Below are positions 49,536-58,998 of a DNA stretch of 64,000 nt, piece by piece (the first letter of the stretch is position 1; each line of letters begins with the position of its first letter). The DNA lies in contig NZ_JQMJ01000004.1 of the NCBI RefSeq assembly GCF_000744655.1, forward strand, positions 4,898,001 to 4,962,000, written 5' to 3'. The notes beneath the pieces are model-generated. The model ran no database searches. It was not told where the DNA came from and saw only the letters and a program-made list of their open reading frames with translations. The DNA is from Streptacidiphilus rugosus AM-16. GTDB lineage: Bacteria > Actinomycetota > Actinomycetes > Streptomycetales > Streptomycetaceae. The translations under genes and the position numbers were made by a program.

Positions 49536-50510
49536 TCAGAGCCAGCCGTTGTGCGCGGCCTTGATGCCGGCCTCGAAGCGGCTGGCGGCGCCCAGGCGTT
49601 CCATGATGGAGGACATGTGGCGGCTGACGGTGCGGGAGGACAGCCCGAGGCGTTGGCCTGCGGTCTCGTCGGTGAGGCCGGAACCGAGGAGGCGGAGGAG
49701 TTCGCGTTCGGCCACGCTCAGGCCGGTGGCCGGGTCCTCGGTGCGGACGGCGCCGAGGGGGATGGCGGTCGCCCAGGCCTGTTCGAAGAGGTCGACCAGG
49801 GCGGAGACGATGCCGGGTTCGGTGACGTGGAGCGCGCCCTTGCGAGTGTGGGCGGGGTCGATGGGGACCAGGGCCTGGGTGCGGTCGATGATGACCAGAC
49901 GCTGGGGCAGGACCGGTGCGGTGCGGACCTCGCTGCCCAGGCTGAGCAGCCACTGGGCGTAGGCGGTGGTGTGGGGGTCGTTGCGGGTGGCGTCCTGGTA
50001 GAGGGACTTGACGGTGACGCCGCGGGCGATGGCTGCGGCGTTGCCTTCGCGGCCGGCGGCCAGGTCCTCGGGGCGCTGGCTCGCGCCGGGGTGCACGCCG
50101 ACGCACTCCGTGCGGACCTCGCGCATCAGCACCTCCAGGCGGTTCTGGATGGCGTCCATGCCGATCAGGCGTTCGCCGTGCCCGGGCCGGGTCTCGGCGC
50201 GGTCGGCGACCATGCGGGTCACAGCGGCGCGGGAGGCGGCGAGTTGGGCCTGACGGGCGGCCAGGTCGGCTTCCTCGCGGGCGAGCATGTCGGCCAGACC
50301 GACCTCCGGGGTGACCGCGCGCATCTGTCCGGGGTGCTCGCTGGACGCGCGGACCAGCATCAGGTGGGTGAGTTCGTTCAGGCAGTCGTGGACCTGGCCG
50401 GGCGTCAGGCCGGTGAGGTCGGCTAGCTGGCTCACGCCGTAGCCGGGGTGGTCGAGCATGGCCCGGTAGACGTCTGCGGCGGTGGTGGTCAGGCCCAGTG
50501 CTTCCAGCAT
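49536..50510 (-). CDS. TrmB-like/LuxR-type transcriptional regulator
   Basis: 324 aa. An N-terminal TrmB-like winged helix is at about residues 5-60 (TAADVYRAMLDHPGYGVSQL, ADLTGLTPGQVHDCLNEL). A central effector domain follows (GERLIGMDAIQNRLEVLMRE, LVPIDPAHTRKGALHVTEPG). A C-terminal LuxR HTH closes it (LSVAERELLRLLGSGLTDET, LSSRTVSRHMSSIMERLGAA). Such regulators are numerous in Streptomyces. It is divergent from the peptide cassette beginning at 50608 and is its most obvious candidate controller. Confidence 0.88.
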   Translation of the reverse strand: MLEALGLTTTAADVYRAMLDHPGYGVSQLADLTGLTPGQVHDCLNELTHLMLVRASSEHPGQMRAVTPEVGLADMLAREEADLAARQAQLAASRAAVTRMVADRAETRPGHGERLIGMDAIQNRLEVLMREVRTECVGVHPGASQRPEDLAAGREGNAAAIARGVTVKSLYQDATRNDPHTTAYAQWLLSLGSEVRTAPVLPQRLVIIDRTQALVPIDPAHTRKGALHVTEPGIVSALVDLFEQAWATAIPLGAVRTEDPATGLSVAERELLRLLGSGLTDETAGQRLGLSSRTVSRHMSSIMERLGAASRFEAGIKAAHNGWL

Positions 50511-50678
50511 GGTGACGGGTCCTCATGACGGTGGCGCGGCCCCCCGCTCGCGCCTGGCAGGGTCATGCTCGCAGCCGACCGGGCTCCGATCAAGAAGGGC
50601 TATGGGCGCTTCGTCGCAGGTCAAGCCGGTATGCGGGATTTCTTCCGCGCGACTCAGGGCTGTCGCGCCCCAGCTTTT

Positions 50679-50692
50679 GACGCGTACGCGTC
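50679..50692. promoter_or_regulatory. 14-bp palindrome GACGCGTACGCGTC, copy 1
   Basis: Perfect palindrome, present again at 56519-56532, about 190 bp upstream of each peptide gene. Probably the operator of the cassette. The gap 50511-50884 holds this and no other gene. Confidence 0.68.
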
Positions 50693-50884
50693 ATGATGTC
50701 TGCTTCCCGACAGGCGTGTTGACGACACCCGGAACTCCTTCCCCGGGGGACTGACCACGACGAAGCTGGTCATCGCCAGCAGGAAGCACGAACAACCCGC
50801 AGAACCACCGGACCGAGCGTCACCGCGGGACGCCAGAACCGGAACCGCAAACAGCTGCCCCTTCACCCGAAAAGGACCACCACC

Positions 50885-51055
50885 ATGCTCCGCACCCGAC
50901 TCGCCAAGGCCACCGCGGTCACCACCCTTGCCCTCGCCACCGTCCTCCTCCTCCCCACCGCCGCCAACGCCGCACCCACCACCACAACCACCACCATCAC
51001 CACCCAAGCCACGGCCACCCCCACCACCGCCCCGGACAACGGCACCTGGGGCTGA
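50885..51055 (+). CDS. Secreted Thr-rich peptide ending DNGTWG, copy 1
   Basis: 56 aa: MLRTRLAKATAVTTLALATV, then LLLPTAANAAPTTTTTTITT and QATATPTTAPDNGTWG. A classical signal peptide cleaved near ANA-APT leaves about 27 residues, mostly Thr, Ala and Pro, with a fixed acidic-aromatic end DNGTWG. AAAAGGA lies before the ATG. The identical copy at 56725 shows recent duplication or gene conversion. Function unknown; peptide signal, leader or wall-associated peptide are options. Confidence 0.72.
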   Translation: MLRTRLAKATAVTTLALATVLLLPTAANAAPTTTTTTITTQATATPTTAPDNGTWG

Positions 51056-51061
51056 ACCCGG

Positions 51062-51388
51062 ATGGACGTCGTCTACACCTTCCTGACCCGCCGCGCACCC
51101 GTGGCGGACCAGACCGCCGAAGTCAGCGAAGCGGTGGACGTCCTGTGGGCCCACGCCGAGCCCGACGACCGCCTCGAACACGCGGGCGGTCGTGCCGAAG
51201 CCGATCGGCTCGACCTCCTCCTCTTCTTTCTCCCGGCCGACGGCACGGAGCCCGATCACAGCGCCGAACAACGCGCCGTCGCACTGATGCGCCGCGCCCA
51301 CCGTGCCTCACCGCTGCTGCGGGGCCGCTACCTGACGCCGCCCGAGCCCGGGACCCAGCAGCCGGACACCCACCGCGCGAGCTCCTGA
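51062..51388 (+). CDS. Hypothetical protein, 108 aa, coupled to the peptide gene
   Basis: ATG 51062 lies six bases after the peptide stop. MDVVYTFLTRRAPVADQTAE, VSEAVDVLWAHAEPDDRLEH, RAEADRLDLLLFFLPADGTE and DHSAEQRAVALMRRAHRASP read as a small alpha/beta cytoplasmic protein with a disordered tail. In copy 2 of the cassette the same start is kept but the gene is reduced to MDVVTLPT by a deletion. Not recognised; it could be an effector or immunity-like partner of the peptide. Confidence 0.55.
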   Translation: MDVVYTFLTRRAPVADQTAEVSEAVDVLWAHAEPDDRLEHAGGRAEADRLDLLLFFLPADGTEPDHSAEQRAVALMRRAHRASPLLRGRYLTPPEPGTQQPDTHRASS

Positions 51389-51512
51389 ACCGGCAGGTCC
51401 CCTTCACTCGGCCGCGCCCGGAGTGACGTTCCACCCCGGTGACCGCTGTTCCTGCAGGACAGCCGTCCGACCGCCGTCCCCTGCCCCACGCAACCGCCGG
51501 CCCGGCGGTCCG

Positions 51513-51554
51513 CGCTGCCCGCTGCCCGCTGCCCGCTGCCCGCTGCCCGCTGCC
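51513..51554 (+). repeat. Heptanucleotide tandem repeat (CGCTGCC)6
   Basis: Six perfect 7-bp units lie in the leader of the first CHAP gene, 120 bp before its ATG. Such tracts change length by slippage and can alter promoter spacing or leader structure. Confidence 0.85.
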
Positions 51555-51673
51555 CACCTTCCTGCCTGCCTGTGGCGTGTCCGCGCCCTGTTCCGGCAGT
51601 CCCCGGCGGCGGCTGCACACCGGTGCCTCCTCGTCACGTCACCGCTTTCCTCTTCACGCCACCTGGAGAAGTC

Positions 51674-53383
51674 ATGTCTTCGACGACCAACCGCACCAAG
51701 CTCCGCGCCCTTGCCGGCCTCACCGCCGCCGCCGTGGGCGGCATCGCCGCCCTGGGCCTGGGCGCCACTCCCGCGTCCGCCGCCACCGGCACCCAGATCG
51801 TGAACATCGCCGACGCGAACCTGGGCAAGCACTACTGCGACACGAACAGCGCAGGAGGCACCGGCTTCGACAGCAGTTGCAGCGCCAACGGCGGCACGGG
51901 CGAGTACTGGTGCGGGGACTTCGTCTCCTGGGTGTGGCAGCAGGCCGGCATCACCGTCCCCGCGAGCAACCCGGCGTCGGTTCCCTCCTGGATGAGCACC
52001 TCCGCGTACCACGCCCTCGGCAGCGGCTACACCCCCCAGCCCGGCGACGCCGTCGTCTTCGGCGACAACCAGTACCCCACCCAGGGCTCCCACATCGCCC
52101 TGGTCACCAACTACAGCAACGGCATGCTGTCCGACATCGGCGGCGACGAAGGCGGGGGTGGAAGCCCCTGGTGGTCCACCAGCAGCGTCCAGGTCGACGA
52201 GGGCAACGGCGCCCCCTGGAATCCGAACACCCACCTCTTCGCCGGACAGAGCTACGAGATGTGGGTCCTGGGCTACGTCAGCTCCGGCGCCTCCAGCTCC
52301 GGCGGCGGAGGCGGACCTGTCTCCACCGCCCTGCAGGGCGGCTCCAGCCTCACCCCACTGACCAACAACGGGTTCGACGTCGCCTGGCAGGGCCGCGACG
52401 CCAACAACAGCCTCTGGGTCGGCACCGGGAGCGGCACCTCGCTCTCGTCCTACGGCGACCCGAAACTGCTCGGGGTCGCGGCGGGGACGAAACCGTCGAT
52501 CACGACCCTCGCAGACGGCACCTGGGTCGCCGCCTGGCAGGGCCGGGACGCCAACAACAGCCTGTGGGTCGCCACCGGCAGCGGCAACACCATCACCTCC
52601 GTCGCCGACCCCTACGCTCTGGGCGTCGCCCCGAACACCAGCCCCTCCATCGTCGCGCTCCCCAACAACCAGTGGGAGGTGGCCTGGCAGGGCCGGGACG
52701 CCAACAACAGCCTCTGGCTCGCCACCGGCAGCGGCACCAGCATCACCGCGAAGAACGACCCGATGGCACTCGGCGTGGCCGCCGGCACCAGCCCCTCCCT
52801 GGTCCCGCTCGCCGGCGGCGGATTCGAGGTCGCCTGGCAGGGCCGGGACAGCAACAACAGCCTCTGGCTCGCCACCGGGAACGGCACCTCGCTGACCGCC
52901 GACGGCGACCCCTGGCTGCTCGGCGTCGCCGCGAACACCAGCCCGTCGCTGGCCCCCCTGCCAAACGGCGGATTCGAGGTGGCCTGGCAGGGCCGCGACG
53001 CCAACAACAGCCTCTGGCTGGCCACGGGCAGTGGCATCAGCATCACCGCGAAGGGCGACCCGAACCTCCTCGGTGTGGCCGCCGGCACCAGCCCCTCGGT
53101 CGCCGCGACGGCCGGCGGCGGATTCGAGGTGGCCTGGCAGGGCCGCGACGCCAACAACAGCCTCTGGCTGGCCACCGGCACCGGCGCCGGCATCACCGCC
53201 GACGGCGCCCCCTTCGCGCTCGGCGTCGCCGCCGGCACCAGCCCCTCCCTGGTCACCCTCCCCAACGGCACCTTCGAGGCCGAGTGGAAGGGCCGCGACA
53301 CTAACGGCAGCCTGTGGCTGGCCACCGGCACCGGCAGCACCATCACCGCCGACGGCGCCCCGTTCGCCCTCGGCGTCGCCTGA
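51674..53383 (+). CDS. Secreted CHAP-domain protein with seven-bladed propeller repeats
   Basis: 569 aa from ATG 51674 (GGAGAA upstream). A signal peptide spans about residues 1-37. The CHAP/NlpC-like domain (about 40-205) has catalytic Cys80 in EYWCGDFVSWVWQQAG and His140 in QGSHIALVTNYS. After a Ser/Gly linker come seven repeats of about 50 aa with the core AWQGRDANNSLWLATGSG and LGVAAGT, closely similar to one another: a PLL/tectonin-like lectin propeller. It should cleave peptide bonds in peptidoglycan while bound to surface glycans. A GCGGCCGCAGG hairpin follows. Confidence 0.88.
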   Translation: MSSTTNRTKLRALAGLTAAAVGGIAALGLGATPASAATGTQIVNIADANLGKHYCDTNSAGGTGFDSSCSANGGTGEYWCGDFVSWVWQQAGITVPASNPASVPSWMSTSAYHALGSGYTPQPGDAVVFGDNQYPTQGSHIALVTNYSNGMLSDIGGDEGGGGSPWWSTSSVQVDEGNGAPWNPNTHLFAGQSYEMWVLGYVSSGASSSGGGGGPVSTALQGGSSLTPLTNNGFDVAWQGRDANNSLWVGTGSGTSLSSYGDPKLLGVAAGTKPSITTLADGTWVAAWQGRDANNSLWVATGSGNTITSVADPYALGVAPNTSPSIVALPNNQWEVAWQGRDANNSLWLATGSGTSITAKNDPMALGVAAGTSPSLVPLAGGGFEVAWQGRDSNNSLWLATGNGTSLTADGDPWLLGVAANTSPSLAPLPNGGFEVAWQGRDANNSLWLATGSGISITAKGDPNLLGVAAGTSPSVAATAGGGFEVAWQGRDANNSLWLATGTGAGITADGAPFALGVAAGTSPSLVTLPNGTFEAEWKGRDTNGSLWLATGTGSTITADGAPFALGVA

Positions 53384-53419
53384 CGCCACGCCGGCTCCCG
53401 CGAAGCATCCACGGCGCGC

Positions 53420-53446
53420 GCGGCCGCAGGCCGGACCTGCGGCCGC
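53420..53446 (+). terminator. Hairpin after the first CHAP gene
   Basis: GCGGCCGCAGG and CCTGCGGCCGC pair over 11 bases around CCGGA, 37 bp after the stop. The remaining gap to 53729 has no gene but carries the GAGGAGA ribosome site of the next one. Confidence 0.72.
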
Positions 53447-53728
53447 CGTGCCCCACCCGCAGGGGGAACCCGGTCCGGGCACCGCGCAGACGACGCCCGG
53501 ACCGAGGCGGCGGCAGGCAGCGGACATCCGCACCCGGCAGATCCCGGACCACCGCACCGTCGAGCGACCCCCGCTGCATCACCGGCGTGGACGGACCCCG
53601 CGGGATTTCGGGGTCATCGCCGGCCGCGGGAGCACCCCGTCGTTCCCCCCCCGTCCCCGGCTCGCACAGCCGACCGGTTGCAACAGCACTGACACAGACC
53701 CTTCCTGACTCCGACTGAGGAGACGTCC

Positions 53729-56305
53729 ATGCCTCGCGCTTCCCGCAGCCTGTCCGCGATCGTCCTCGCTGCAGCCCTGGCCGCTCCGATGGGGGCGATG
53801 TCCGCCGCACACGCCGCGGATCCCACCGGCGCGGCGGCGGCCGCCACCGCAGAGGCCGCGACCTCGCGCCACGCCATGACCGTCGACGGTGTCGCGCTCA
53901 CCGTCACCAATCCCGACATGCCGGTCGGTGCGTCGTTCGCCGCCAAGCCCGGGGACTCCGTGCAGAGCGCCTCGGTCGAGGCGCCCGCTCCGTTCCGGTT
54001 CTTCTCGGTCACCGCGGTGCCCTTCGGTGAGCAGTTGCCGAAGTCCGACTTCCCCGTCGCCGCATCAGGTGGCGCCGCCGCCTGGCGGTCGGTCGGCGGC
54101 CCCTCGACCCGCGGTCCGGTCGCCACGTTGTTCGGCCAGAAGGTCGTCGGGCAGGTGAGGCACGAGACCGACGGCACCAGCAAACTCCTGACCGTGCAGT
54201 GGATCGTCGAGGCGGGCAAGAGGGTCTGGGTGGTGCGCGCCGAACACGCCGAGCCGAACGTCCCGGCGCGGTTCGGCGCCGGCATCACCGTGACCTCCGG
54301 GCACCTGACGACGCCGACCACCGTCGACGTCACCGCCGCCAACACCGGCTCCCACCCCCACGGCCATCCCATGGCCACCACGACGACCGGGGACCCGGCC
54401 ATCTCCTTCGGCGGAGCGCTGCCCGCGCCTCCGTCCAGCTACTGGAACCACGGCAACGGCACTTGCGACGGCGGCTTCGACAGCCTGCTCAACCAGAAGA
54501 TCGCCGGCCTGCAGGTCTGCGGGTACAGCAACGGCAACGACCGCGCCACCGGCTGGGGCAGCAACGAATGGGAATGCGCCGAGCTCCCGATGCGCTACGC
54601 CATCCAGCGCTGGGGCCTGACCGGCAACGACGGCGGCAACGGCAAGGACCAGGCCGACAACCTCACCACCGCCCTCAACAAGATCCACCCCGGTCGCTTC
54701 GTGCTGCGCGGCAACTCCCTGTCCGACCACACCGCCCCCCAGCCGGGCGACGTGATCGCCTACTACGACAGCGGGGCCGGCCATACCGGCGTCGTCATCG
54801 CCAGCCACGTCGACGCCAACGGCAACGGCACGATCGACATGGTCCACCAGAACTGGAACGCGGTCGCCTCCACCCCCGGGGAGTGGGACGGCATCACCGT
54901 CAGCAACGGCATGGTGGAGAACGTCCTGGGCGGCTCCGGCGACGTGCACTGGATGCACGACACCTCCTGGACCCCGATCCCGGCCGGCTTCAACGTCAAC
55001 CTGTGGGGCTTCAACAGCGGCCAGACGCTGTCGGGGACTGTCAACCTGACGGCTCACCCGACCCAGGAGGGCGTGATCAACTCCCTCACCTATCAGATCA
55101 CCGGCCCCAACGGCTACAACTCGGGTCCCTTGAGCCCCAGCGCCGGAGGCGCGTCGTACTACCCCCTGGCATTCGACACGATCCCGCTGGCACCGGGTAC
55201 CTACACCGTGTCGATGACCGCCAACGAGATCGACGGGCAGAACCACACCTACGTCGGCGGCTCGTTCACGCTGCAGGAACCGCAGGGCACCAACGTGCTG
55301 CGCGCCGCCAACGGCACGATCGCGGTGTACAACGTCGGTACCGACGGCAACGTCTACGGCACCAACCAGAACACCGTCGGCGGTCCGTTCAACAGTTGGG
55401 CCCAGTTGTCTTCGGGCATCCAGTTCACGGGCAAGGTCGCGGCGATCCAGGACTCCAGTGGTGCCATCTCGCTGTATGCCCGCAGTGCCGACGGCTTCGT
55501 CTGGGGCACCACTCAGTTCAGCGCAGGCGGTGCCTTCGGCAACTGGAACATCGTCGGCGGCAACGGCGGTGTGGCCAGCGACCCGGCGGTGCTGCTGACC
55601 CGGAACGGCACCGTGGCGATCTACGTGACCAACGGCGTCGGCGACGTCTCAGGAACCAGCCAGGCCACCGTGGGCGGCACCTTCTCCAACTGGGCGTCCC
55701 TCGGCGCACCCGCCGGCATGACCGGCCGACCCTCGGTGATCCAGGACTCCACCGGCCGCATCACGGTGTACGCCCGCAACACCAACGGGTGGCTGTACGG
55801 CACCACACAGCTGAGCGCAGGCGGTGCCTTCGGCAACTGGAACGGCGTCGGCGGCAGTTCCGGCGTAGTCAGCGACCCGGCGGTGCTGCTGACCCGGAAC
55901 GGCACCGTGGCGATCTACGTGACCAACGGCGTCGGCGACGTCTCAGGAACCAGCCAGGCCACCGTCGGCGGCACCTTCTCCAACTGGGCGTCCCTCGGCG
56001 CACCCGCCGGCATGACCGGCCGACCCTCGGTGATCCAGGACGCCGCCGGCCGCATCACGGTGTACGCACACAACACCAACGGCTGGCTGTACGGCACCAC
56101 CCAGTTCAGCGCCGGTGGCACCTTCGGCAACTGGAACGGCGTCGGCAACAGCAACCCTGTGGCTGCCGGCACCGTCGGCGACCCGACTGCCCTGTTCGCC
56201 GCCGACGAGACGGTCGCGGTCTACAGCAAGGACGGCGTCGGAGACGTCCTGGGAGTCAGCCAGTTCAGCGTGGGCGGGGCCTTCGGCAACTGGCAGATGA
56301 TGTAA
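53729..56305 (+). CDS. Large secreted CHAP-domain protein with Ig-like and lectin-like repeats
   Basis: 858 aa. A signal peptide (about 1-29) is followed by a poorly defined domain (about 45-215). The CHAP-like domain (about 235-405) has Cys283 in WECAELPMRYAIQRW and His352 in GAGHTGVVIASHVD. An Ig-like domain (about 418-520) ends in MTANEIDGQNHTYVGGSF. About seven lectin-like repeats then run to the end (VIQDSTGRITVYARNTNGWL, YGTTQLSAGGAFGNWNGVGG), two of them almost identical in DNA. Possibly a peptidoglycan-acting exoprotein with a sugar-binding propeller. Confidence 0.87.
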   Translation: MPRASRSLSAIVLAAALAAPMGAMSAAHAADPTGAAAAATAEAATSRHAMTVDGVALTVTNPDMPVGASFAAKPGDSVQSASVEAPAPFRFFSVTAVPFGEQLPKSDFPVAASGGAAAWRSVGGPSTRGPVATLFGQKVVGQVRHETDGTSKLLTVQWIVEAGKRVWVVRAEHAEPNVPARFGAGITVTSGHLTTPTTVDVTAANTGSHPHGHPMATTTTGDPAISFGGALPAPPSSYWNHGNGTCDGGFDSLLNQKIAGLQVCGYSNGNDRATGWGSNEWECAELPMRYAIQRWGLTGNDGGNGKDQADNLTTALNKIHPGRFVLRGNSLSDHTAPQPGDVIAYYDSGAGHTGVVIASHVDANGNGTIDMVHQNWNAVASTPGEWDGITVSNGMVENVLGGSGDVHWMHDTSWTPIPAGFNVNLWGFNSGQTLSGTVNLTAHPTQEGVINSLTYQITGPNGYNSGPLSPSAGGASYYPLAFDTIPLAPGTYTVSMTANEIDGQNHTYVGGSFTLQEPQGTNVLRAANGTIAVYNVGTDGNVYGTNQNTVGGPFNSWAQLSSGIQFTGKVAAIQDSSGAISLYARSADGFVWGTTQFSAGGAFGNWNIVGGNGGVASDPAVLLTRNGTVAIYVTNGVGDVSGTSQATVGGTFSNWASLGAPAGMTGRPSVIQDSTGRITVYARNTNGWLYGTTQLSAGGAFGNWNGVGGSSGVVSDPAVLLTRNGTVAIYVTNGVGDVSGTSQATVGGTFSNWASLGAPAGMTGRPSVIQDAAGRITVYAHNTNGWLYGTTQFSAGGTFGNWNGVGNSNPVAAGTVGDPTALFAADETVAVYSKDGVGDVLGVSQFSVGGAFGNWQMM

Positions 56306-56319
56306 GCCGGTCGGCCCTT

Positions 56320-56358
56320 CGCATCCCGCGGCTCCGAACCATGGAGCCGCGGGATGCG
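56320..56358 (+). terminator. 16-bp perfect hairpin after the large CHAP gene
   Basis: CGCATCCCGCGGCTCC (56320-56335) pairs fully with 56343-56358 around GAACCAT, 14 bp after the stop codon. Confidence 0.82.
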
Positions 56359-56518
56359 GCGTTTGCAAGGTGGGTTGCGACGGATCATGCCGGCCCGCAT
56401 CAGTGGGAGGCGACGAGGACCTCGCCAAGGATGCGGACGCCGGGCAACGTCTCGCCCAAATGGCTTCGTCGCAGGTCAGACCGGTATGCGGACTCCCTTC
56501 CACACGACTCACAAGCTT

Positions 56519-56532
56519 GACGCGTACGCGTC
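56519..56532. promoter_or_regulatory. 14-bp palindrome GACGCGTACGCGTC, copy 2
   Basis: Identical to 50679-50692 and at the same distance from the peptide start. Confidence 0.68.
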
Positions 56533-56724
56533 ATGATGTCTGCTTCCCGACAGGCGTGTTGACGACACCCGGAACTCCTTCCCCGGACGACCGACCACGA
56601 CGAAGCTGGTCATCGCCAGCAGGAAACACGAACAACCCGCAGAACCACCGGACCGAGCGTCACCGCGGGACGCCAGAACCGGAACCGCAAACAGCTGCCC
56701 CTTCACCCGAAAAGGACCACCACC

Positions 56725-56895
56725 ATGCTCCGCACCCGACTCGCCAAGGCCACCGCGGTCACCACCCTTGCCCTCGCCACCGTCCTCCTCCTCCCCACCG
56801 CCGCCAACGCCGCACCCACCACCACAACCACCACCATCACCACCCAAGCCACGGCCACCCCCACCACCGCCCCGGACAACGGCACCTGGGGCTGA
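56725..56895 (+). CDS. Secreted Thr-rich peptide ending DNGTWG, copy 2
   Basis: 56 aa, identical in DNA and protein to 50885-51055: signal peptide plus a Thr/Ala/Pro-rich mature chain with the fixed DNGTWG end. The lack of any synonymous change, while flanking bases differ, points to recent conversion or purifying selection. The coding partner that follows copy 1 is deleted here, so the peptide alone may be what is kept. Confidence 0.72.
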   Translation: MLRTRLAKATAVTTLALATVLLLPTAANAAPTTTTTTITTQATATPTTAPDNGTWG

Positions 56896-57264
56896 ACCCG
56901 GATGGACGTCGTCACCCTGCCGACGTGACACGCCGCGCCCACCGCGCCACACCGCTGCTGCAGGACCGCCGCCTCACGCCGCGCGGGCCCGGGACCCAGC
57001 AGTCGGACACCCACGGCACAACCCCCTGAACCAGCGGGCCCCCGTCACCCGACCACGCCCGGAGTGACGTTCCACCCCGGTGACCGCTGTTCCTGCAGGA
57101 CAGCCGTCTCGAGCGACCCGCGCCTCACCTGCACCGAATTCGCCGCGCCCGTTGACCGGGTCCGTCGGCCCGCGCCGCTGAGCGCCCGCCCCACTGCATC
57201 GGCCGTGACCGGCCTGGTTCGTCACGCCCGCCCGACTTCTCACCTCGACCCGAAGGACTCCCCC

Positions 57265-58998
57265 ATGCGCAGCAACATCGCCCGTCGCACCGGTATCCGC
57301 ACCGCGACCCTGGCCGCCATCGCGGTCGCCGCCGGGCTGCTCGTCTCCGGCCCCGCCCACGCCGACACCGGCACCTACGTCAACAACGGGAACGCGACGC
57401 CCACCTCCACCGGCACGCTCGGCACCGGCGTCGGACAGAAGCTGACCGGCGCGCAGATGGTGCAGCGGGCCCTGGACTGGGTCAGCCACAACGTCAGCTA
57501 CAACCAGGGGCAGTCCTTCTCCGACGCCGAGGTCGGCGGGCCCTACCGCACCGACTGCGGCGGGCTCGTGGACATGGCCTGGCAGCTCACCAGCAGCCCC
57601 GTCGTCACCACCCCCTCCCCCGGCATCGACTCCTCCACCTACAGCACCAAGCTCACCAGCTGGTCCCAACTCCAGCCCGGCGACGCCCTCGCCGTCGCCG
57701 GCGAGCACATCAACCTCTTCGCCGGCTGGATCAACCAGTCCGCCGGCACCTTCCACTACATCGCCGAGGACAACCCCTCCGTCACCACCGGCGAGTACTC
57801 CGCCAGCACCAGCGACACCTCCATCGACGGCTACCCCAAGAGCTCCTTCGAACTCCTGCGCTCCAACAACCTCGCCCCCGCCATCCCCGCCGGATTCAGC
57901 GTCACCGCCAACGCCCAGCAGGACGGCAGCACGGTGAACCTGACCTCCACGGTCACCGCCAACGGCTACATCAACTACGTCAACTACGTCATCACCGGAC
58001 CGGGAGGCTACAACCAGACCTTCCGCGCCGGCGGCGGGCCGGCCAGCCCCAACACGACCGGCTACGCCTACACCTGGAACACCAACGGCCTGACCGCAGG
58101 CACCTACTCCGTCCAGCCCGTCGCCAACGAGATCGACGGGGCCGACCACAGCTACGCCGCGACGGGCGTCACGGTGGCTCCCTCGGGCGGTAACCGCCTG
58201 TACGGGCTCTCCAGCGACAAGAGCGCGGTGTCCGTGTGGAACGGCACCGGCAGCGGCCCCGGAGCCTGGACAGTCATCGGCGGGGCCGCAACCCAGATCT
58301 ACGCCGGAGGCTTCGGCCTCTTCGCCACCAACCCCAACGACGGCAGCATCAGCAAGTACAACGGCACACCCGGATCCTGGACCGTCGTCGGCGGCCCCGG
58401 CGCCACCTACGCCGTCAGCAACGACCACCTCTACGGGCTCTCCAGCGACAAGAGCGCCGTGTCCGTGTGGAACGGCACCGGCAGCGGCCCCGGAGCCTGG
58501 ACCGCCATCGGCGGAGCCGCAACCCAGATCTACGCCGGAGGCTTCGGCCTCTTCGCCACCAACCCCAACGACGGCAGCATCAGCAAGTACAACGGCACAC
58601 CCGGATCCTGGACCGTCGTCGGCGGCCCCGGCGCCACCTACGCCGTCAGCAACGACCACCTCTACGGGCTCTCCAGCGACAAGAGCGCCGTGTCCGTGTG
58701 GAACGGCACCGGCAGCGGCCCCGGAGCCTGGACCGCCATCGGCGGAGCCGCAACCCAGATCTACGCCGGAGGCTTCGGCCTCTTCGCCACCAACCCCAAC
58801 GACGGCAGCATCAGCAAGTACAACGGCACACCCGGATCCTGGACCGTCGTCGGCGGCCCCGGCGCCACCTACGCCGTCGGAGCCAGCAGCCTGTACGGCA
58901 TCTCCAGCGACTTCTCGGCCGTCTCCACCTGGACCGGTAGCGGGACCAGCTGGACCGCCGTCGGTGACTCCGCAAGCGAGATCGCCGTCGGCAGTTGA
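57265..58998 (+). CDS. Secreted NlpC/P60-like protein with Ig-like and tectonin-like repeats
   Basis: 577 aa from ATG 57265. A signal peptide spans about residues 1-33 (LAAIAVAAGLLVSGPAHA). The NlpC/P60-like domain (about 60-200) has Cys98 in YRTDCGGLVDMAWQL and His148 in AGEHINLFAGW. An Ig-like domain (about 210-305) ends in VANEIDGADHSYAATGV, matching the one in 53729-56305. Three almost identical 77-aa repeats and a fourth degenerate one follow (LYGLSSDKSAVSVWNGTGSG, IYAGGFGLFATNPNDGSISK): tectonin-like beta repeats. Likely a cell-wall hydrolase of the same system. Confidence 0.87.
   Translation: MRSNIARRTGIRTATLAAIAVAAGLLVSGPAHADTGTYVNNGNATPTSTGTLGTGVGQKLTGAQMVQRALDWVSHNVSYNQGQSFSDAEVGGPYRTDCGGLVDMAWQLTSSPVVTTPSPGIDSSTYSTKLTSWSQLQPGDALAVAGEHINLFAGWINQSAGTFHYIAEDNPSVTTGEYSASTSDTSIDGYPKSSFELLRSNNLAPAIPAGFSVTANAQQDGSTVNLTSTVTANGYINYVNYVITGPGGYNQTFRAGGGPASPNTTGYAYTWNTNGLTAGTYSVQPVANEIDGADHSYAATGVTVAPSGGNRLYGLSSDKSAVSVWNGTGSGPGAWTVIGGAATQIYAGGFGLFATNPNDGSISKYNGTPGSWTVVGGPGATYAVSNDHLYGLSSDKSAVSVWNGTGSGPGAWTAIGGAATQIYAGGFGLFATNPNDGSISKYNGTPGSWTVVGGPGATYAVSNDHLYGLSSDKSAVSVWNGTGSGPGAWTAIGGAATQIYAGGFGLFATNPNDGSISKYNGTPGSWTVVGGPGATYAVGASSLYGISSDFSAVSTWTGSGTSWTAVGDSASEIAVGS
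58201..58893 (+). repeat. Three tandem 231-bp repeats inside the NlpC/P60-like gene
   Basis: Units start at 58201, 58432 and 58663 and differ at only a few bases (the first has GTC for GCC in AWTxIGG and two synonymous changes). The near identity shows recent amplification; the number of blades can change by recombination. Confidence 0.92.

Follow-up and report, generated by a model that had tools for sequence, protein, structure and literature searches.

The stretch of DNA analysed here (the window, 64,000 nt in length) lies on contig NZ_JQMJ01000004.1 of Streptacidiphilus rugosus AM-16, a member of Streptomycetaceae (hereafter the family), and all coordinates without a label refer to it. 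Beside a single divergently oriented regulator gene it carries a duplicated cassette of a palindromic site (dyad), a conserved leader and a gene for a short, apparently exported peptide, with secreted proteins further downstream. Individual cassette loci with which it was compared are designated by L-numbers. The features of the region are as follows.

49536 to 50510, minus strand: regulator of 324 aa (Pfam, AlphaFold2 (AF2) and Foldseek).
50678 to 50693, no strand: dyad copy 1, TGACGCGTACGCGTCA, a candidate operator; a dyad stands at the equivalent place of other leaders.
50695 to 50837, plus strand: conserved leader copy 1, a candidate structured RNA (111.7 bits with leader model R1, whose training set includes this sequence).
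50885 to 51055, plus strand: peptide precursor copy 1, 56 aa, with a Sec-type N-terminus and the ending DNGTWG; an open reading frame (ORF) with relatives elsewhere.
51035 to 51052, plus strand: putative mature core DNGTWG, directly preceded by Pro (tail comparison).
51062 to 51388, plus strand: 108-aa protein with a ferredoxin-like (beta-alpha-beta-beta-alpha) model (AF2 predicted local distance difference test, pLDDT, 87).
51446 to 51464, plus strand: 3' inverted-repeat element copy 1, CTGTTCCTGCAGGACAGCC, a candidate operator or RNA hairpin that recurs after other leaders.
51674 to 53383, plus strand: secreted protein with a CHAP domain (32.9 bits in Pfam, against a cut-off of 26) and repeats at its C-terminus.
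53729 to 56305, plus strand: second secreted-looking protein, an ORF with a repeat C-terminus and no Pfam match.
56518 to 56533, no strand: dyad copy 2, the same palindrome as copy 1.
56535 to 56677, plus strand: leader copy 2 (109.3 bits with R1; outside the training set, but identical at 139 of 143 bases to copy 1, which was trained on).
56725 to 56895, plus strand: peptide precursor copy 2, in which base comparison shows no difference from copy 1.
56902 to 57029, plus strand: decayed remnant of the 108-aa gene, in which profile positions 62-111 alone still match.
57087 to 57105, plus strand: 3' inverted-repeat element copy 2 (by pattern).
57265 to 58998, plus strand: third secreted-looking protein, with C-terminal repeats and no Pfam match; a closely similar N-terminus is found behind the L066 cassette.

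An earlier note on this DNA had reported two blocks with an identical 56-aa peptide gene, and this is correct: the two ORFs agree at 171 of 171 bases and their starts are 5,840 bp apart. Within 50677-51072 only 4 of the 396 positions are not shared by the two copies, every one of them in the leader, and 50787-51072 (286 bp) contains no difference. The palindrome that the note gave as 14 bp is indeed present in both blocks, although its length is 16 bp. Deletion of the 108-aa gene from copy 2 was borne out as well, the frame being gone and most of 51094-51284 lost (13 aligned bases remain). The flanks are less alike than the centre, as had been stated (41 of 54 aligned upstream bases match), but likeness between the copies does reach somewhat beyond the peptide gene and its control region, with 90 of 107 aligned bases matching over the 3' portion of the 108-aa gene and 72 of 79 around the 3' element. 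Because these two parts can still be recognised in copy 2, a larger cassette appears to have been duplicated and to have diverged unevenly thereafter, a pattern best explained by duplication of a cassette in which either gene conversion later acted on the centre, or the surroundings decayed while the centre was kept. Where the note had invoked selection or gene conversion acting on the peptide, we therefore prefer gene conversion or recent duplication inside a larger cassette; selection on synonymous sites may have acted but need not be invoked for the identity of the peptide genes.

Four cassettes are present in the source genome (9.0 Mb), namely the two in the window, one at C4:6977571 (regulator, a peptide ending DVINWG, and a 111-aa gene 58% identical to the 108-aa gene) and one at C3:546189 (regulator, a 125-aa gene, leader, a peptide ending DSLGWQ, and a secreted protein that is CHAP-like by eye). 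At E<=0.01 a profile of the 108-aa protein, built from two of the genome's own cassettes, matched 88 of 249 sampled family genomes, its weaker hits being doubtful, and the leader model matched 77 of the 249. Considering that this model was trained on 36 leaders from at most 33 genomes, at least 44 of the 77 matching genomes were new to it. In an order-wide draw it matched 26 of 245 genomes at E<=1e-4, 25 of which belong to the same family. Ten named loci among 36 pattern-matching stretches include Streptacidiphilus jiangxiensis (NZ_FOAZ01000044.1), Kitasatospora humi and K. phosalacinea (two loci), the remainder being from Streptomyces roseicoloratus and five other Streptomyces strains. Peptide, leader, regulator and 105-aa gene (the usual size of the 108-aa gene's relatives) thus recur together in Streptacidiphilus, Kitasatospora and Streptomyces, which is the conservation whose absence the earlier note would have counted against its proposal. 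It is this recurrence in other genomes that lifts the finding above chance, which the local double palindrome alone does not do.

Two arrangements could be distinguished. The usual order in type I, the window's kind, is divergent regulator, dyad, leader, peptide, a gene of about 105 aa that starts 4-16 nt behind the peptide, 3' element and secreted proteins. In type II a small gene precedes the leader, and the peptide is followed, after roughly 120-540 nt, by the gene for a secreted protein; this small gene is probably distantly homologous to the 105-aa gene, judging from an hhalign probability of 54 (E 1.3e-4 over 61 columns). Examination covered 72 leader sites, three near-duplicate loci having been dropped beforehand. 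At 53 of them the regulator is matched on the opposite strand upstream (partially in L064, L069 and L155), and at 49 there is a match to the 105-aa profile, downstream in 48. The leader stands directly before a secreted protein, with no peptide between them, at L137, at the second site of L147 and probably at the second site of L145. At L064, the second K. phosalacinea cassette, the regulator frame (upstream of 9000) looks interrupted and the 105-aa gene matches in two pieces.

The criteria for picking the ORF behind each leader were its start codon, ribosome site, length and signal-like N-terminus, with Trp not required, and export signals were judged by eye and by a crude rule instead of a dedicated predictor. 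A Trp occurs among the last nine residues at 60 of the 72 sites, one of which (L141) is a spurious ORF; this count supersedes an earlier 49 of 52 loci, which was partly circular because the filter required Trp near the end and which included one antisense artefact (L097) among the 49. The short C-terminal cores seen include DNGTWG, SLGWGG, DNLTWG, NDMIWG, NTIWD and TTAWE. In 59 distinct tails, which were chosen for Trp near the end and include the spurious L141, the residue after Trp is Gly in 52, Glu in 4, Gln in 2 and Asp in 1, while position -5 from Trp is occupied by Pro in 23 and position -2 by Leu in 33. Between loci the precursor varies in its middle, and the C-terminal end is the conserved part; hence, of the Thr-rich chain with a fixed end in which the earlier note saw a signal, the Trp core is retained across loci but the Thr-rich middle is not. 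Three copies of the core were found in three precursors (L062 with SLGWG, L149 with NTIWD, and L154 with TTAWE, head to tail), two copies in six precursors, and SIGWGG three times in the precursor of L099. Such repetition within an exported precursor is to be expected of a short core that is itself the product. Different cores (DNGTWG, DVINWG and DSLGWQ) coexist in the source genome. The 56-aa peptide belongs to no Pfam family, and searches with NCBIfam (nothing above cut-off) and PADLOC gave nothing for it.

The regulator is predicted to be composed of a TrmB-like winged helix-turn-helix (HTH, residues about 1-65), a helix (66-107), a TrmB/PLD-like sensor (about 108-255) and a LuxR-type HTH (262-320). 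The Pfam scan gave GerE at 38.7 bits (cut-off 23.5), TrmB at 24.6 bits, slightly below its cut-off of 25.6, and a sub-threshold DUF7436 for the middle domain, and PDB profile matches were to the DNA-binding domains of DevR and NarL. An AF2 model of the whole chain, based on nine sequences, has a mean pLDDT of 74.7 and a predicted template modelling (pTM) score of 0.54. Its best Foldseek match is archaeal TrmBL2 (5bpd, E 1.3e-11), with a root mean square deviation of 16 A over the whole chain, the proteins matching by domain and differing in domain arrangement; TrmB was matched as well, as were PLD-fold proteins of a single domain, among them Nuc (1byr, E 2.3e-5). No tetratricopeptide repeat (TPR) domain was detected by Pfam, AF2 and Foldseek giving a TrmB/PLD fold, and no autoinducer-binding domain was matched by Pfam. 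The 108-aa protein likewise has no Pfam family, nothing above cut-off in NCBIfam and nothing in PADLOC, and Foldseek returned no match under E 0.001 for its AF2 model. A candidate assignment of its family to TetR_C_6, touched by 1 of 19 relatives (E 2.4e-4), was judged to be chance.

The main test for co-variation of core and sensor used 36 type I cassettes having regulator, peptide and 105-aa gene, with core distance taken over the five residues from Trp-3 to Trp+1; omitted were rows in which the regulator match does not span 260 positions, L071 (no peptide), L155 (no 105-aa match, omitted from the main test) and, also from the main test, all type II cassettes. Core distance correlates with sensor distance at r 0.70, and with that of residues 108-181 at 0.72, against 0.12 for the N-terminal HTH, 0.22 for the helix and 0.32 for the LuxR-type HTH of the same regulators, and against 0.32 for the 105-aa protein, 0.24 for the signal peptide and 0.35 for the leader. 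With the other protein parts controlled, the core-sensor partial r is 0.63 (0 of 1000 permutations), and the equivalent values are 0.003 for the 105-aa protein, -0.02 for the LuxR-type HTH and -0.13 for the N-terminal HTH. In subgroup tests, which used sensor residues 108-181 with other regulator parts controlled, partial correlations were 0.37 for 19 non-xGWG, 0.64 for 18 xGWG and 0.67 for 11 type II cassettes, each with 0 of 1000 permutations. Between nearest neighbours by residues 108-181, a mean of 0.81 of the five core residues differ, compared with 1.19-1.58 for non-sensor parts and 2.00 for random pairs. In a tree of 49 regulators, rows mostly cluster by core type, with exceptions that include L056 and L079. 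The proposal of the earlier note that a peptide signal is tied to a TrmB/LuxR-type regulator therefore gains support, the core co-varying with the sensor far above the other domains. Distances of the N-terminal HTH correlate most highly with those of the 105-aa protein (r 0.54, and <=0.32 with every other part), which hints that these two might touch and could be physical partners.

The likely outputs were examined by scanning 69 downstream proteins (at least 150 aa, starting within 1.7 kb of a leader, with L150 excluded and the window's second secreted protein added). Domains detected were CHAP in 16, FG-GAP_3 in 15, Rpf-type transglycosylase in 6, NlpC/P60 in 3 and nonribosomal peptide synthetase (NRPS) in 2, and a few of the 69 are plainly unrelated neighbours (transporter, transposase). 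The NRPS genes (L059:3908-7132 and L060:9420-12644, from Streptomyces sp. D2-8 and S. roseicoloratus, with Condensation and AMP-binding domains) are directly preceded by the cassette and stand in place of wall hydrolases, showing that the sensing module is separable from its output. At L138, L139, L144 and L146, different secreted proteins of one cluster, which by eye are CHAP/NlpC-like, Rpf-like and GDSL-like, share an identical or nearly identical C-terminal tail, which seems to be a shared C-terminal domain homogenised within a genome. Within the window, a secreted-looking serine hydrolase of the beta-lactamase/D-aminopeptidase fold (PF00144; 48261-49502) adjoins the regulator, and a short array of GCTGCCC-type 7-bp units (51506-51555) lies between the 3' element and the CHAP gene.

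Two inverted-repeat elements accompany the cassettes. The dyad TGNCATGNNCATGNCA occurs just before the leader, with at most 3 of 12 mismatches, at 40 of 66 leader sites that have a following short ORF, whereas the reversed control gave 0 of 66; in 22 of the 40 it is located exactly at -17. The window's dyad is also at -17, yet has 4 of 12 mismatches to this consensus. Allowing up to 3 mismatches, 0.60 sites of this palindrome are expected in the window by chance and at least two sites were found in 13 of 100 shuffles. The exact recurrence of the palindrome adds no independent evidence, since both copies belong to the duplicated tract. A search of 39 loci with the pattern TGTNCCTGCAGGNACA gave nothing, because the site is an imperfect palindrome. 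With no more than 4 mismatches allowed over its 19 positions, the 3' element GCTGTTCCTGCAGGACAGC was found within 1.5 kb behind 37 of 72 leaders, compared with 1 of 72 for the reversed pattern and 1 of 52 background regions, and 13 of 47 listed sites show a symmetric change from T..A to C..G. At most one mismatch, the source genome contains four such sites, all within cassettes. A wider regulon of this element is not claimed, as at most two mismatches gave 16 sites versus 14 for the reversed control.

We propose, with a probability of about 0.65, that the cassette encodes a peptide pheromone which is read by the TrmB/PLD-fold LuxR-type regulator and controls secreted muralytic enzymes. The precursor would be exported via Sec and cleaved to release its last 5-7 residues (DNGTWG in the window), and the short peptide would be re-imported, probably by an oligopeptide permease, and bind the TrmB/PLD-like middle domain of the adjoining 324-aa regulator inside the cell. 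Through its two DNA-binding ends, the regulator might then control both the divergent peptide operon (via dyad and leader) and the downstream muralytic enzymes (via the 3' element), with the 105-aa protein as an accessory factor whose target is perhaps the N-terminal HTH. The window's two peptide cassettes would make the same signal and share a single regulator. We also lean, by a small margin, towards a broader claim, namely that these cassettes constitute a new peptide quorum-sensing family of Streptomycetaceae, with a genome-encoded Trp-core pheromone (in two or three copies in some lineages), a TrmB/PLD-fold receptor with two DNA-binding ends, an undescribed leader common to the peptide and some hydrolase genes, and several private channels per genome. 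Support at the sequence level comes from the recurring gene order, the Trp core, the multi-copy cores, the core-sensor co-variation and the conserved DNA/RNA elements, while processing, import, binding, direction of regulation and the role of the leader are steps that we infer. Several points weigh against the pheromone proposal. Neither a dedicated protease nor a permease was seen in the window's cassette. At 19 of the 72 leader sites, including the window's copy 2, there is no upstream regulator match, and at 12 of 72 there is no Trp-ended peptide, either because the ORF is absent, broken or long, or because the Trp has been lost (L091) or the core is internal (L099). The window's leader folds no better than shuffled sequences (z +0.59, and +0.73 for a longer stretch). 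Permutation of distance matrices leaves phylogenetic dependence in place; however, the other domains of the same regulator share its history and show a far weaker effect, so that the contrast between domains is the real control.

The leader, conserved over about 140 nt, has no match in Rfam 15 up to E 1 (window 50500-57300 and 20 of the 30 short loci L010-L039). It might be a run of protein-binding DNA dyads instead of a structured RNA, its paired changes reflecting symmetric DNA sites; this concerns the leader alone and is compatible with a pheromone, and we regard it as a possibility to be taken seriously but as the less likely account of the leader. Dyad DNA sites would likewise yield paired changes, RNAalifold on 45 leaders gave seven pairs only, and the leaders of L009 and L153 resemble the window's in folding no better than shuffles. 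On the other hand, helix 5 (GCGUC/GACGC) keeps a conserved loop between its arms, is 96.7% paired and shows 12 changes from U-A to C-G, and its pairs are convincing among the seven. All five measures for five hand-set helices exceed all 500 shuffles and all slides, although the helices other than helix 5 were set by hand from pairing frequencies and their counts lean towards structure for this reason. Fold z-scores of 16 single leaders range from -4.89 to +0.59, three of them, including the window's, being above zero, and the best-folding leaders (-4.89, -2.75 and -2.55) again favour RNA. In L101:4815-4958 the helix-5 stem is kept as GTGTC/GACAC around a different loop (AATCAACC in place of AACCGCGG), a change that supports the stem being real.

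Export, cleavage, re-import and regulator binding would be the same if the peptide served to monitor secretion or extracellular proteolysis, so that a cell sensed the state of its own wall or secretion. The evidence from the parts is the same as for a pheromone, a single cell could read its own peptide, and the outputs include secreted wall hydrolases; but several cores in one genome, together with lineage-specific cores, resemble separate channels, for which a plain monitor has no need, and we consider this role rather unlikely. In the arrest peptides SecM and MifM, a signal sequence is combined with a short motif at the stop codon. The present precursor shares both, and the 105-aa gene follows within 4-16 nt in type I, so that the C-terminal core could stall the ribosome and couple translation or secretion to the next gene. 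However, arrest motifs act on the ribosome, which makes co-variation of the core with a regulator's sensor unexpected, as are head-to-tail repeats such as TTAWE three times, and the gene that follows in type II, which encodes a secreted protein, lies at a distance of roughly 120-540 nt; a regulatory nascent chain is thus quite improbable. Hardly more credible is a secreted effector (antimicrobial, wall-binding, or a ribosomally synthesized and post-translationally modified peptide) co-regulated with the hydrolases, since, even though the exported-type precursor adjoins secreted wall enzymes and exactly one Trp is present in 49 of 59 distinct precursors, no maturation enzyme was seen in the window's cassette, the NCBIfam WGxxGxxG match of the peptide is sub-threshold (16.4 bits versus a cut-off of 35), and core diversity tracks the regulator's sensor and not the accessory protein.

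The pheromone proposal may be compared with known systems. Rgg-SHP, PlcR-PapR and Rap-Phr of Firmicutes, members of the RRNPP group, have in common with the present cassettes a short secreted propeptide gene (export here being judged by the crude rule) beside a cytoplasmic regulator, a short core at the precursor end, and a core and receptor that vary together. In contrast, the C-terminal TPR receptor domain of RRNPP was not found here, a TrmB/PLD-like sensor between two HTHs being present instead, and the system occurs in Streptomycetaceae with a conserved leader, a 105-aa partner and multi-copy cores. By analogy, it would work like RRNPP but is not a member, as no TPR domain was found in the receptor. 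The archaeal TrmB/TrmBL regulators appear to share the predicted fold of the N-terminal HTH and sensor, whereas the present regulator has an extra C-terminal LuxR-type HTH and its proposed ligand is a peptide. LuxR-type quorum regulators share the GerE DNA-binding domain (38.7 bits versus 23.5), but their autoinducer-binding domain was not found by Pfam.

Import of a peptide signal has been recorded in the family (PMC9640686, PMC11303876), the example being a 655-Da signal peptide of S. coelicolor that is taken up by BldK. Identity of this factor with one of the present cores was considered and rejected, as none of eight computed core masses equals 655 (DNGTWG has 648.25 Da); no cassette was tied to it. 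The relevant passages of a review list butyrolactone-type and other small molecules as signals of Streptomyces and Kitasatospora (PMC4748050), and those of another source place gene-encoded oligopeptide signals in Firmicutes and small-molecule signals in Actinomycetota (PMC10075063). Among the titles listed from an open-access library, in which the core TTAWE is in effect not searchable as text, no description of the cassette system was found. The system, in which the earlier note saw the window's best candidate for an undescribed one, is spread across the family and not special to this locus.

Overall, core ends that change in step with one part of a regulator look like an undescribed peptide language controlling secreted enzymes that cut the cell wall. 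If this is true, the family would possess a signal alphabet of linear peptides that are encoded by genes and paired with receptors to match, and these signals could be synthesised and tested directly. An inducer would be named for secreted muralytic enzymes (CHAP and Rpf-type) and, at two loci, for an NRPS, and which peptides streptomycetes import would become a testable question.

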